Source: an uncultured Opitutia bacterium (lineage in GTDB: Bacteria > Verrucomicrobiota > Verrucomicrobiia > Opitutales > UBA953). From it: a DNA stretch of 45,876 bases. A program made the translations under genes and the position numbers. The notes beneath the pieces are model-generated. The model did no database searches, had not been told where the DNA came from, and saw nothing but the letters and a program-made list of their open reading frames with translations. Below are positions 7,303 to 13,934 of the stretch, piece by piece (the first letter of the stretch is position 1; each line of letters opens with the position of its first letter). The stretch lies in assembly GCA_903840355.1 (NCBI GenBank), contig CAIMFJ010000002.1, positions 195,001 to 240,876 of the forward strand, given 5' to 3'.

Positions 7303-9969
<2,667 letters not shown>

Positions 9970-10094
9970 TCAAAATGCTGTTTTTAACACCCCATTGTGC
10001 AATCGGAAAAGGGCCCTTCGTGAATGTTTTTTTCGCCCCAGAAATATCTCCCTATCAACCCCTTACAAAATCTAATAGGGGGTGTTAGAAACCG

Positions 10095-10114
10095 TTGTTC
10101 ACAGGTTATCCACA
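10095..10114 (+). promoter_or_regulatory. Tandem DnaA-box-like sites upstream of gyrB
   Basis: TTATCCACA at 10106-10114 is a perfect match to the DnaA box (TTATNCACA). TTGTTCACA at 10095-10103 is a one-mismatch copy in the same orientation two bases away. They lie in the 232-base gap between oleB and gyrB, about 170 bases before the gyrB start. No dnaA, dnaN or long AT-rich unwinding element is present here, so a regulatory or titration role is more likely than an origin. Confidence 0.4.
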
Positions 10115-10156
10115 GGCAAAAATACAGCCCGCCCCACCCCCTAGGAATGTCCCGGC

Positions 10157-11041
10157 TTATCGAGGGCCAAAAAATTCGGCAATGGGCTCTAGCGCCGCCT
10201 CTCGGGCATCCTCTAGAACATAATGCCCAGCCTTCGGGAAAAGGAGCTGCTGGGCCTCAGGAAACCGCACGGCAAAGGCATCCAAGAATGACTGATTGAA
10301 GCAGAAGTCCTTCAAACCCCAGCAAATCAAAATGGGCTTACCTCGCAAAGTCGCCAAACGGTCATCGACCGCCTGCAACACCGGCCGCGTGGGGTGATCG
10401 AGCTCCATCGGGATATCGGCCACAAAGTTAGCAATGGCCTTTCGCTCCCGACGGGTGGCGTAAACCTCCAGAAAACCTCGCTTCACGGCGGGTGATAAAG
10501 GTTGCTCCACCGCCATCCACGTCGCGGGCCAGGCAAAAGCATTAAACTGTTCGACGAGAAAACGACCTAAATACGGCACGCGACAGAGAGCGATGCGCCC
10601 AGGGATCTCTTCGGAGAGAAACGCCCCGGTGTTCGTAATCAGAATCTTGCCGACTTGATGGGGGCGACGTCCAGCAACGCCCAAACCAATCGCACCACCC
10701 CAATCATGGACGCCTAAATCGAAAGAGGTGATTTGGAGATGATCCAAGAGGGCCTCGATGTCGGCCATGCGGTCGGCAAGGCGTAAGAATTGGGACACCC
10801 GCTCCGACCGGCCCATGCCGACGTGGTCAGGAGCAATCACCCGACGTCCCTGACGCCCTAATTTCAGGATTAAATCGCGCCACAAGAACGACCAACTGGG
10901 ATTGCCGTGCAACAAAAGCACGGGGCGGCCATCTTTGGGTCCATGGTCGATGTAATTCATTCGACCCGATGGAGCCTTAAAGTTCTGATAATCAGTACGA
11001 TAGAGGTTTAGTACCTCTTCTGGAAGCTGGTCTTGGCTCAT
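10157..11041 (-). CDS. oleB: OleB-like alpha/beta hydrolase (probable beta-lactone decarboxylase)
   Basis: Haloalkane-dehalogenase-superfamily hydrolase. With oleA directly upstream it is best read as OleB, which converts a cis-beta-lactone to a cis-olefin with loss of CO2 in head-to-head hydrocarbon synthesis. Visible features: oxyanion region LLLHGNPSW, nucleophile Asp113 in VHDWGGAIG (near D114 of the Xanthomonas enzyme), and catalytic His in PKAGHYVLED. The second ATG of the frame (11041) is chosen because it overlaps the oleA stop as ATGA, indicating translational coupling; an ATG three codons upstream is also possible. By sequence alone a haloalkane dehalogenase cannot be excluded; context decides. 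294 residues. Confidence 0.78.
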   Translation of the reverse strand: MSQDQLPEEVLNLYRTDYQNFKAPSGRMNYIDHGPKDGRPVLLLHGNPSWSFLWRDLILKLGRQGRRVIAPDHVGMGRSERVSQFLRLADRMADIEALLDHLQITSFDLGVHDWGGAIGLGVAGRRPHQVGKILITNTGAFLSEEIPGRIALCRVPYLGRFLVEQFNAFAWPATWMAVEQPLSPAVKRGFLEVYATRRERKAIANFVADIPMELDHPTRPVLQAVDDRLATLRGKPILICWGLKDFCFNQSFLDAFAVRFPEAQQLLFPKAGHYVLEDAREAALEPIAEFFGPR

Positions 11042-12078
11042 CCGATGCATTCAGCCGCCAGCATCAAGCTCGCTAAGCCGCTCCCAATCCCCAGCAGGGC
11101 CACTTGGTCGCCCGGCTTCACGCACCCCTCTTGTCGCGCCAACGCCAAGGTGGCAGGCAACGAAACGGAGCCGACATTACCGAGGCGATCAAAGGTCTGG
11201 TAATCCTTCACAGGGTCTAAACCGAGTTTTTCGAAAAGCATCAAAGAGTGACGTCGCCCGACTTGGTGCGTGATGACGCGCTGGGGTGTGGCTTCGGTCC
11301 AACCGGTCGTGGTCTTAAAGCGACCCCAACAACGCTGCGCTAAGCCGACCCCGGCATACAACAGGGCTTCGGAATCGGTCCGCATCTCCAACGCTTCCGA
11401 GGCGGTATCCCCTTCGCAAAGTTGATTCGCCGACGAATCGGTTTCAGCCGCCCCACCTAAGAGCCTAAAGGTGGGCGTGCGCACTAAATCATCGCGGGCA
11501 ATCACGACCGCCGCCGCCCCAGCTCCAATCGTCAAATTCGCAAAGTAAGGTTTAATGCCGTCACGCGTGAGGGCTAAGTTCTCGTTTAAGAGTTTAATGG
11601 TGTTCTCCACCAAAGGGCGGCCGTCTTCGCCCGAACACACCAAGGCACGGCGGATTTGTCCCGACTCCACCATGCCAGCGGCCAAAGCCGTAGCATTGAG
11701 AAATCCTAAACAGGCATTGGAGACGTCGAGGATTTGGGCCTGCGGACCAAGCCCGAGCAAGCCATGCACATACGCGGCGGTCGAGGGTTCTAAACGATCC
11801 CGACACACGGAGGAGTGAATCAGTAAATCAATGTCAGCAGGACCCACTCCAGCTTCCGCCATCGCCTTGCGCCCTGCAGTCGCCGAGGCCCAAGAGGGTC
11901 GCACGGCTTGCGGCCAAAAGCGTCGCTCGCGAATCCCAGTCATCAATTCCAAGCGACCTTCTGGCAAACGGAGTCGAGTGTAGAGTGGCTCCAATTTTTT
12001 TTCTAAATCAGCCGATGACCAAACTTCCGGAGGAAGCTCCGCCACGAGGCCAGTTAAAACAGTGCGACGAAATTGCAC
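11038..12078 (-). CDS. oleA: OleA-like 3-oxoacyl-ACP synthase III family thiolase
   Basis: Thiolase-fold enzyme that in the Ole pathway condenses two fatty acyl-CoAs head-to-head to a beta-keto acid. The OleA signature SVCRDRLEPSTA with E97 and the nucleophile Cys in SNACLGFLN (C123) have the same 26-residue spacing as E117/C143 of Xanthomonas OleA. The N-terminal stretch LPEGRLELMTGIRERRFW is also characteristic. His (THQVGRRH) and Asn (LGNVGSVSLP) of the FabH-type triad are present. The frame is open much further upstream, but that part overlaps fabI; GTG at 12078, 7 bases after the fabI stop, gives 346 residues, near the usual OleA length of about 340. FabH is the alternative but lacks the RDRLEP motif. 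Confidence 0.82.
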   Translation of the reverse strand: MQFRRTVLTGLVAELPPEVWSSADLEKKLEPLYTRLRLPEGRLELMTGIRERRFWPQAVRPSWASATAGRKAMAEAGVGPADIDLLIHSSVCRDRLEPSTAAYVHGLLGLGPQAQILDVSNACLGFLNATALAAGMVESGQIRRALVCSGEDGRPLVENTIKLLNENLALTRDGIKPYFANLTIGAGAAAVVIARDDLVRTPTFRLLGGAAETDSSANQLCEGDTASEALEMRTDSEALLYAGVGLAQRCWGRFKTTTGWTEATPQRVITHQVGRRHSLMLFEKLGLDPVKDYQTFDRLGNVGSVSLPATLALARQEGCVKPGDQVALLGIGSGLASLMLAAECIG

Positions 12079-12085
12079 GGTGAAA

Positions 12086-12886
12086 TTAGGAAAGGCGGTT
12101 AGAGGCTTTGACCAATGCTTCGTCGAAGAAATTCCAACCCATGCCCGCATCGACCACAATGCCTTGACCGTTAATCCCACTCGAACGCGGCGAGAGCAAG
12201 TACACGGCCACATCCGCCACTTCCTGCGTCTTCAACGCCTGCTTTCGGAAGGTCATCTTTTCCGCATGCAAGTAATTGTCCAAATACCCTGGAATCCCCG
12301 CACTGGCACTGGTCTTTAACGGACCTGCATTGACGGAGTTAAAACGTACTTTGGTGTCGTGCGAAAACGACTTGGCTAAGAAGCGGCTGGCCGATTCCAA
12401 CGCGGCTTTAATCGGCGACATGTAACCGTAATTGGAAGCGGTGACTTGCGAGGAAATGCCAATCGAAACGAAGGCGGCATCGACGCGTAAATAGGGCTTT
12501 AACTCGCGCGCCAACTCGACGAGTGAAAAAGCCGAAATGGTCGTGGCCTGTAAAAAGTCGGCCCGCTGCGTTTGGTGAAAAGGCTGCATGCCTTGCGAAA
12601 AATTCGCAAAGGCCACGCTGTGCAAGACACCATCCAGCGGCCCATGCTCCTGCCCTACTTTGGCAGCCAAGGCCTTGATGTCCGACTCCTGTTCGAAGTC
12701 ACAAATGTAAACCGCTTTGCCCGCTAAAAGGGTCTTGAGCGACTCCAGACGCGTGGCCGAGCGCACGGAATAAACCACCTTGGCCCCTTCAGCTTCAAGG
12801 GTCTGAGCGACGTGCCAAGCGACGGACTTTTTGTTGGCGACGCCGAGGACAAGAAAGGTTTTTCCAGTTAAACCAAGGAAGGACAT
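12086..12886 (-). CDS. fabI: Enoyl-ACP reductase (NADH), FabI type
   Basis: Last reduction step of each type II fatty-acid elongation cycle; soluble tetramer of the short-chain dehydrogenase family. The FabI-type nucleotide site reads LVLGVANKKSVAW, and the active site has Y-x6-K as Y153 (NYGYMSPIK) to K160, the FabI rather than classical SDR spacing. DFEQESDI and LHSVAFAN follow the family pattern. ATG at 12886 is preferred over the TTG two codons upstream; it lies two bases after the fabZ stop. 266 residues. Co-directional with fabZ and oleAB, so acyl chain synthesis and Ole condensation may be co-expressed. Confidence 0.93.
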   Translation of the reverse strand: MSFLGLTGKTFLVLGVANKKSVAWHVAQTLEAEGAKVVYSVRSATRLESLKTLLAGKAVYICDFEQESDIKALAAKVGQEHGPLDGVLHSVAFANFSQGMQPFHQTQRADFLQATTISAFSLVELARELKPYLRVDAAFVSIGISSQVTASNYGYMSPIKAALESASRFLAKSFSHDTKVRFNSVNAGPLKTSASAGIPGYLDNYLHAEKMTFRKQALKTQEVADVAVYLLSPRSSGINGQGIVVDAGMGWNFFDEALVKASNRLS

Positions 12887-12888
12887 AA

Positions 12889-13329
12889 TCAACTCAGTTG
12901 GTCTACGAGGGCCAAGGTAAAGCGCAAGGTTAAGACCGCTTTACCCTCACGACGCACGGTGCCGGTGAGAAAGTGAAAATGTTGTAACGTCTCCAAGTAC
13001 TTTACTTCGATGGAAACGGTATCGCCCGGTCGCACGGCGCCTTTAAATTTAGCTTCTTCAATCCGACAGAGCGCTGGCGTCTTGCCTTCTAAATTCACCC
13101 CTTCGTTGGTCATTTTCTTAACGAGGTAAACGGCTCCAGCTTGGAACACGGACTCGCAGAGTAAGACGCCCGGGGTAATCGGATTGCCCGGATAGTGCCC
13201 GGCATAAAAAGGCTCGTCGGCCCGGAAGGTGCGTGTGCATGTCGCCCCATCAGGTCGCACTTCATCAATGCGATCCAAGAACAGGAACGGCGGGCGGTGG
13301 GGGATGGTGGCAAGCACTTCCGGGAGCAT
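12889..13329 (-). CDS. fabZ: 3-hydroxyacyl-ACP dehydratase, FabZ/FabA-like hotdog protein
   Basis: Dehydrates 3-hydroxyacyl-ACP in fatty-acid elongation. The hotdog-fold active site is GHYPGNPITPGVLLCES with catalytic His45 and Glu59, the same spacing as in E. coli FabZ (H54/E68). The N-terminus reads LATIPHRPPFLFLDRI, the standard FabZ opening. 146 residues. It is the first gene of the leftward fabZ-fabI-oleA-oleB group, with only two bases to fabI, and is divergent from a secreted peroxiredoxin gene 92 bases away. Confidence 0.92.
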   Translation of the reverse strand: MLPEVLATIPHRPPFLFLDRIDEVRPDGATCTRTFRADEPFYAGHYPGNPITPGVLLCESVFQAGAVYLVKKMTNEGVNLEGKTPALCRIEEAKFKGAVRPGDTVSIEVKYLETLQHFHFLTGTVRREGKAVLTLRFTLALVDQLS

Positions 13330-13421: not shown

Positions 13422-13934
13422 ATGAAACCCCTCCTCTCCACCATGCTCCTCGCCCTCATCCCCTTCTTCGGTTCAGCCGCCGAAAAATTAGCCGTTGGCG
13501 ACGCCATCCCGGCCGTGACCTGCAATGACCAAGACGGCAAACCCGTCGACCTCGCCAAAGAAGGCGCCAAGGGTCTCTTGCTCGTTTACTTCTACCCTAA
13601 GGCTAAGACGGGTGGTTGCACGAAGCAGGGCTGTTCCTTGCGCGATCACTGGGCCGAATTACAAAAAGCCGGCGTGCAAGTGATTGGCGTGAGCACCGAC
13701 GACGAGAAGCTCCAAAAGGAATTTAAAGAAGAACAAAAATTTCCCTTCCGCTTACTCGCCGACAAAGACAAGAAAGCCGTGACGGAAGCTTTCGGGATGA
13801 AGAATATGGTGGGCATGGCCAGCCGCAGCGCCTTCCTCTTCAAGGACGGCAAGTGCATCATGGCTGACTACAAGGGCCACACGACCGACCAAGCGGAGCA
13901 GGTCTTAAACTTCTTACAAAGCCACGGTAAGTAA
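13422..13934 (+). CDS. Exported peroxiredoxin (Bcp/AhpC-TSA family)
   Basis: Thiol peroxidase reducing hydroperoxides. A cleavable signal peptide is evident (MKPLLSTMLLALIPFFGSAA), so it should act in the periplasm, unlike classical cytoplasmic Bcp. The active site YFYPKAKTGGCTKQGC keeps the P-x3-T-x2-C arrangement, with Gly where most Bcp proteins have Pro before the peroxidatic Cys neighbourhood (TPGC becomes TGGC). The second Cys five residues later matches the atypical 2-Cys Bcp layout. The rest (VIGVSTDDEKLQKEF, FPFRLLADKDKKA) is typical. 170 residues, single gene followed by its own terminator. Confidence 0.9.
   Translation: MKPLLSTMLLALIPFFGSAAEKLAVGDAIPAVTCNDQDGKPVDLAKEGAKGLLLVYFYPKAKTGGCTKQGCSLRDHWAELQKAGVQVIGVSTDDEKLQKEFKEEQKFPFRLLADKDKKAVTEAFGMKNMVGMASRSAFLFKDGKCIMADYKGHTTDQAEQVLNFLQSHGK

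Follow-up and report, generated by a model that had tools for sequence, protein, structure and literature searches.

The Ole pathway for long-chain internal olefins is best known from the oleABCD clusters of Xanthomonas and Shewanella and from the arrangement oleA-oleBC-oleD in Micrococcales. In Photobacterium the olefin genes lie beside a polyketide-type Pfa synthase, which is thought to supply acyl groups bound to acyl carrier protein (acyl-ACP) (PMC6463001), and in freshwater metagenome-assembled genomes of Opitutae the genes were reported as an oleABCD operon (PMC5673642). Olefin genes in Opitutaceae-type metagenome-assembled genomes have also been published (PMC10176705). Here we describe a stretch of 45,876 nucleotides (the window) of the genome of an uncultured Opitutia bacterium from the Opitutales group of Verrucomicrobiota (G000, 2.27 Mb, 8 contigs, 99.3% complete), which comprises positions 195001-240876 of contig C2. 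It contains the genes fabZ, fabI, oleA and oleB in series. With a probability of about 0.78, we regard this locus as one half of a complete Ole pathway of ordinary chemistry for long-chain internal olefins, which is split into fabZ-fabI-oleA-oleB in the window and oleC-oleD elsewhere in the genome.

All four enzyme families and the active-site residues of OleA and OleB are common to the oleABCD clusters and the genome described here. In contrast to these clusters, the genes are found at two places, oleAB is joined to fabZ-fabI, and there is no oleBC fusion: oleB adjoins oleA, and oleC and oleD are encoded on another contig. The Photobacterium neighbourhood is similar in that its olefin genes also adjoin a presumed supplier of acyl-ACP, but in the window the supplier is represented by genes of type II fatty acid synthesis within an apparent operon (PMC6463001). 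The freshwater Opitutae belong to the same class, but the available part of that account describes one operon and mentions neither a split nor fabZ-fabI (PMC5673642). The accessible parts of the literature searched contained no mention of a split of the ole genes or of a fabI-oleA link; Sukovich 2010 was outside that scope and might note it. The chemistry is known, whereas the genes are wired in a variant manner.

The four genes are encoded on the minus strand from 13329 to 10157. The first gene of the apparent operon (12889..13329) encodes a FabZ-like 3-hydroxyacyl-ACP dehydratase (Pfam FabA-like 80.2 bits, cut-off 23; NCBIfam FabZ 100.3 bits, below the cut-off of 113). It is followed after 2 bases by the gene for a FabI-like enoyl-ACP reductase (12086..12886; Pfam PF13561 189.7 bits; best E 6e-38 to solved FabIs), and after 7 further bases by oleA (11038..12078), which encodes a putative non-decarboxylative thiolase of 346 amino acids. 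The gene oleB (10157..11041), encoding a predicted beta-lactone decarboxylase that belongs to the haloalkane dehalogenase-like enzymes of subfamily III, overlaps oleA by the four bases ATGA. The start codons were chosen by us, i.e., ATG for fabI, GTG for oleA, and ATG at 11041 (or ATG at 11050) for oleB; a longer open reading frame (ORF) of oleA with 391 amino acids begins within fabI. The original prediction, made from the sequence of the window, had described a run of these four genes in one direction with gaps of 2 to 7 bases or an ATGA overlap, and both coordinates and spacing were confirmed. Between 9900 and 13500 no terminator-like site was found (shuffled sequences: 6.1), and the single promoter-like site was on the opposite strand (shuffled sequences: 1.5), while the promoter type of the host may differ from the one scanned. 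In the contigs of 34 relatives, which span 4.7 to 17 kb and several of which end at contig edges, FabI and OleA were neighbours in 34 cases, OleA and OleB in 33, and FabZ and FabI in 32; Arthrobacter OleC and OleD as queries had no match in any of these contigs. The four-gene layout is far beyond chance, and fabZ-fabI-oleA-oleB is predicted to be read as a single transcript.

The OleA of the window scored 401.5 bits with the model NF006720 (cut-off 285) and at most 107 bits with general FabH models. The same model is the top model also for the Arthrobacter OleA (460.3 bits), which is encoded beside oleBC and oleD. The nearest solved chains, labelled as 3-oxoacyl-ACP synthase III, were found with an E of 1e-63, and the next chains with 1e-18; we take the nearest ones to be the Xanthomonas OleA. 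The published OleA pattern EPxx[AS]x(14,18)DxxNACL (PMC7158056) is matched by the window protein and by 115 of 119 OleA-hit sequences (exceptions L035, L051, L052 and L053), and it is absent from the plsX-linked FabH of the genome and from its other protein resembling ketoacyl-ACP synthase (KAS) III. Glu117 and His285 (Xanthomonas numbering) are named as catalytic residues of OleA in the references of PMC7064751. The window protein has the equivalents of both; among the sequences from the order the Glu was found in 82 of 83 (one gap) and the His in all 83. The equivalents of Cys143 and Asn315, presumably also catalytic in the same numbering, are likewise present in the window protein and in 83/83 sequences. 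In a tree of 52 sequences, a branch with 100/100 support separated 41 OleA sequences, with that of the window among them, from 7 FabH sequences; of the four ungrouped ones, L052, L053 and the KAS III-like protein sided with FabH, and L051 (Streptomyces) was placed beside OleA. The published pattern together with this branch ruled out that the protein is a FabH. Judged by signature, catalytic residues and tree, the window protein is a genuine OleA, so that the name given in the original prediction held up, as did the placement against FabH that it had proposed as a check.

For OleB, the catalytic residues and the tree were of different value. Subfamily III haloalkane dehalogenase-like enzymes, represented by DhmeA and the Xanthomonas OleB, have the catalytic pentad Asn, Trp, Asp, Asp, His (PMC10503415). 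The window OleB shares this pentad (N47, W114, D113, D245, H273), which was found in 79 of 79 OleB sequences from window, order and phylum and in five of five Arthrobacter OleB domains. The acidic Asp at the position of DhmeA D258 was also present in all 79 OleB sequences, and two DhaA sequences carry Gly instead. The best solved matches were 8ckp and 8ooh, which according to the residue numbers in PMC10503415 would both be DhmeA, followed by DhaA-type dehalogenases. The NCBIfam models for haloalkane dehalogenases matched OleB with 120 to 130 bits, below their cut-offs of 241 to 466. In a first tree, for which a remote hydrolase served as the distant outgroup, OleBs and dehalogenases were not cleanly separated. 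Without this outgroup the window protein was placed among the OleBs with a support of 87/98 and in 85% of 200 bootstrap trees, in a comparison with only three dehalogenase sequences, two of which are near-copies. The name OleB, which had also been predicted, was upheld by the pentad; the proposed tree against haloalkane dehalogenases was less clear, and the grouping with OleBs in it is moderate.

The original prediction had left open whether oleC and oleD lie elsewhere or whether the OleA/OleB pair does different chemistry. A search of the genome with the Arthrobacter OleC and OleD yielded a single strong match for either query, in adjacent positions on contig C4, and weaker matches elsewhere. 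The two genes form one overlapping pair (G000:C4:452,481-455,178; overlap 8 bases). OleC has 569 amino acids and scored 599.5 bits with NF006754 (PRK09274; cut-off 478; Arthrobacter OleC part 375.5), and the next-best models were two olefin beta-lactone synthetase models (506.7 of 900 and 426.4 of 850; Arthrobacter OleC 312.9 and 278.4). OleD has 331 amino acids, and its top match was 2-alkyl-3-oxoalkanoate reductase with 348.2 bits of a cut-off of 580 (Arthrobacter OleD 290). Because oleC and oleD were found together on C4, the Ole pathway is complete but split, and the genome contains all of its predicted genes in two places. The pair comes after genes for a shikimate dehydrogenase and a prepilin peptidase and before one for a 4HBT-type thioesterase. 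This hot-dog (4HBT) thioesterase gene (L094, 7988-8437, G000 C4) is situated directly behind oleC-oleD and reached 47 bits with YbgC (cut-off 141); it is close behind oleD in some relatives, not in all, and resembles in this respect pfaT next to ole/pfa operons (PMC6463001).

The distribution of the genes agrees with a joint function of both places, and it bears on the second option, i.e., that OleA and OleB work independently of OleC and OleD and make, for instance, a ketone. In the family, OleA was detected in 70 of 79 genomes (E up to 1e-40) and OleC in 76 (E up to 1e-60). In the 273 genomes of the order OleA was found in 212 and OleC in 217; both were present in 201, OleA alone in 11, OleC alone in 16, and neither in 45 (Fisher p 1.8e-27, uncorrected for kinship). 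Both have been kept in six small genomes from families f25 to f27 (G102, G106, G120, G215, G217, G234), whose sizes are about 0.7 to 0.9 Mb. Different chemistry could be invoked only on the ground that OleC and OleD are encoded outside the operon, and it was rejected, since both are in the genome. In addition, OleA and OleC co-occur across the order and the catalytic residues of OleA and OleB match those of the known enzymes, which makes this option very improbable. A pathway of the oleACD type for a beta-lactone natural product would also be in line with the presence of OleA, OleC and OleD. However, OleB adjoins OleA, whereas published oleACD lactone clusters are without oleB (PMC7064751); a beta-lactone as end product was rejected on account of oleB and seems extremely unlikely.

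For the split pathway of ordinary chemistry, the following course is predicted. FabZ and FabI would complete the elongation cycle of type II fatty acid synthesis and leave acyl-ACP. Two acyl groups would be condensed head to head by OleA to a beta-keto acid, OleD would reduce it, OleC would then close a beta-lactone, and OleB would remove CO2 to yield a cis olefin, which is probably a lipid of the membrane. That the pathway is active and that its product is an olefin is what we infer from the genes.

From the order, 40 oleA loci were picked by us, with stretches of 4 to 20 kb, eight of them under 12 kb. FabI was encoded at most 250 bases upstream of oleA at 32 of these loci, which represent 14 families besides the window's own, and oleB at most 300 bases downstream at 37. 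OleC was not found near oleA in any of the 40 stretches, and in the 13 genomes in which both places were readable on one contig OleA and OleC were at least 25 kb apart. Elsewhere in the phylum, at 20 oleA loci (L197-L216), FabI was near oleA in no case, OleB in five and OleC in none; at 15 of them none of oleB, oleC and oleD could be recognised in the stretch around oleA. Because FabI is near oleA at 32 of 40 loci within the order and at 0 of 20 elsewhere in the phylum, the joined fabZ-fabI-oleA-oleB unit looks like a trait that was derived in this order and that some members, among them parts of the window's family, have lost again. The split layout is ancient and occurs widely within a single bacterial order.

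The joining of fatty acid genes to a condensing enzyme had been regarded as a fused supply in the original prediction. The fab-oleA link was confirmed and is conserved within the order; that it constitutes a dedicated supply is doubtful. The operon FabI is the sole FabI match in the genome at an E of up to 1e-10, and no match to the FabK family exceeded its cut-off (two matches, both below; FabV was not searched for). Because of these two results the operon probably carries the general enoyl-ACP reductase. A FabZ-FabI pair dedicated to OleA, apart from general fatty acid synthesis, would fit better with a second FabZ, which indeed exists as an LpxC-FabZ fusion, and with the peculiarities of the FabI clade. 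On the NCBIfam FabI models the operon FabI reached up to 169.6 bits, below all cut-offs. In the window protein and 70 relatives the equivalent of Tyr146 is absent (71/71), while those of Tyr156 and Lys163 are invariant (71/71); these numbers are, as we assume, those of the E. coli FabI. GISS replaces a Tyr-containing stretch of two solved FabIs, and the Ile in it is invariant. The operon FabI is thus unusual, as it stays below the FabI cut-offs and has lost one active-site Tyr. However, only one FabI was found in the genome and FabK stayed below its cut-off, with FabV and any additional FabI of other members of the order outside the search, and a dedicated supply therefore seems improbable to us.

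As regards the acyl donor of OleA, a genome survey of AMP (adenosine monophosphate)-forming ligases with OleC as query (E up to 1e-5), which is not exhaustive for FadD, yielded no clear FadD; its matches were OleC, an acyltransferase/ligase similar to Aas, and a ligase encoded beside the gene for the malonate symporter MadM. The Shewanella OleA is reported to form ketone in E. coli with a mutated fadD, and acyl-ACP was concluded to be the donor in vivo in Shewanella (PMC6463001). An Arg five residues past the catalytic His of OleA occurs in 47 of 83 sequences from the order, in none of 20 from other members of the phylum and in none of 13 from Arthrobacter. The genome's own FabH has an Arg at this position too, which we take to be its ACP-docking residue. 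This Arg is no more than suggestive. The odds are about even that acyl-ACP from type II fatty acid synthesis, rather than acyl-coenzyme A (acyl-CoA), feeds OleA in this organism. A more far-reaching proposal would be that in this order type II fatty acid synthesis includes olefin formation as an integral branch, in which OleA uses acyl-ACP directly and its gene is wired to the only, unusual FabI of the cell. For most members of the order the hydrocarbon would then be a basic constituent of the membrane, retained even by several families whose genomes measure about 0.7 to 1.1 Mb and lost in others. We consider this proposal tentative and rather unlikely as a whole.

Several results weigh against the split pathway as described. 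The strict olefin-specific models for OleC and OleD were matched below cut-off (506.7/900 and 348.2/580), as was also the case for Arthrobacter. The ligase beside MadM scored 402.5 of 575 as acyl-CoA synthetase and 378.9 of 558 as malonyl-CoA synthase, and may thus be an acyl-CoA ligase. Some lineages have neither OleA nor OleC, e.g., f17 in all six of its listed genomes (2.2 to 2.7 Mb) and, among the families with small genomes, f7 and f28 in their listed members. A close FabI is absent at 8 of the 40 order loci (L163-165, L173, L179, L184, L190, L192). Of nine oleA stretches of the window's own family, four are without FabI and OleB (L138, L139, L142, L143), L140 has FabI and no OleB, and the gap between FabI and oleA is wider in L137 (900 bases) and L141 (432 bases). 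The loss of the coupling in several genomes that retain OleA would also be expected if the Ole pathway were ordinary and the operon merely an old neighbourhood, in which oleAB stays behind fabI without regulatory or substrate coupling. The ole genes indeed move freely in the phylum, because outside the order OleB is near oleA at only 5 of 20 loci and FabI at none. Yet the tight gaps were kept at 32 of 40 order loci from 14 families and in all 34 contigs of closer relatives, and an uncoupled neighbourhood is thus possible, but not favoured.

The next gene downstream of oleB is gyrB (7303..9924, minus strand), an ORF that adjoins oleB in 32 of the 34 relatives' contigs. As predicted, oleB is followed by this region and not by oleC or oleD; the 232 bases between the two genes (9925..10156), like gyrB itself, are outside the pathway. 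Two DnaA-box-like 9-mers, TTGTTCACA and TTATCCACA, start at 10095 and 10106 (10095-10114, two bases apart), and no further exact copy occurs in the window. When the pattern was relaxed slightly, at least one box was found in 26 of 32 relatives and both in 15. A replication origin in this gap was unsupported, as the GC skew (2-kb steps) was negative in 19 of 22 steps without a lasting switch there; the pair could perhaps mean control of gyrB by DnaA. Ahead of fabZ lies a divergent PrxQ-like gene (13422-13934), for which the model scores were below the cut-offs.

A published survey (PMC7064751) accepts an oleA locus only if two of the genes oleB, oleC and oleD are found no more than six genes away. 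This rule would drop split loci, and the Ole pathway may therefore be undercounted in this phylum. The position of oleAB behind the apparently sole FabI would tie olefin output to fatty acid synthesis. Acyl donor and cellular role of Ole hydrocarbons are unsettled in general, and an apparent operon in which OleA is conservedly linked to the final step of fatty acid elongation, in a genome where the search gave no clear FadD, would allow a direct test of acyl-ACP as the donor.

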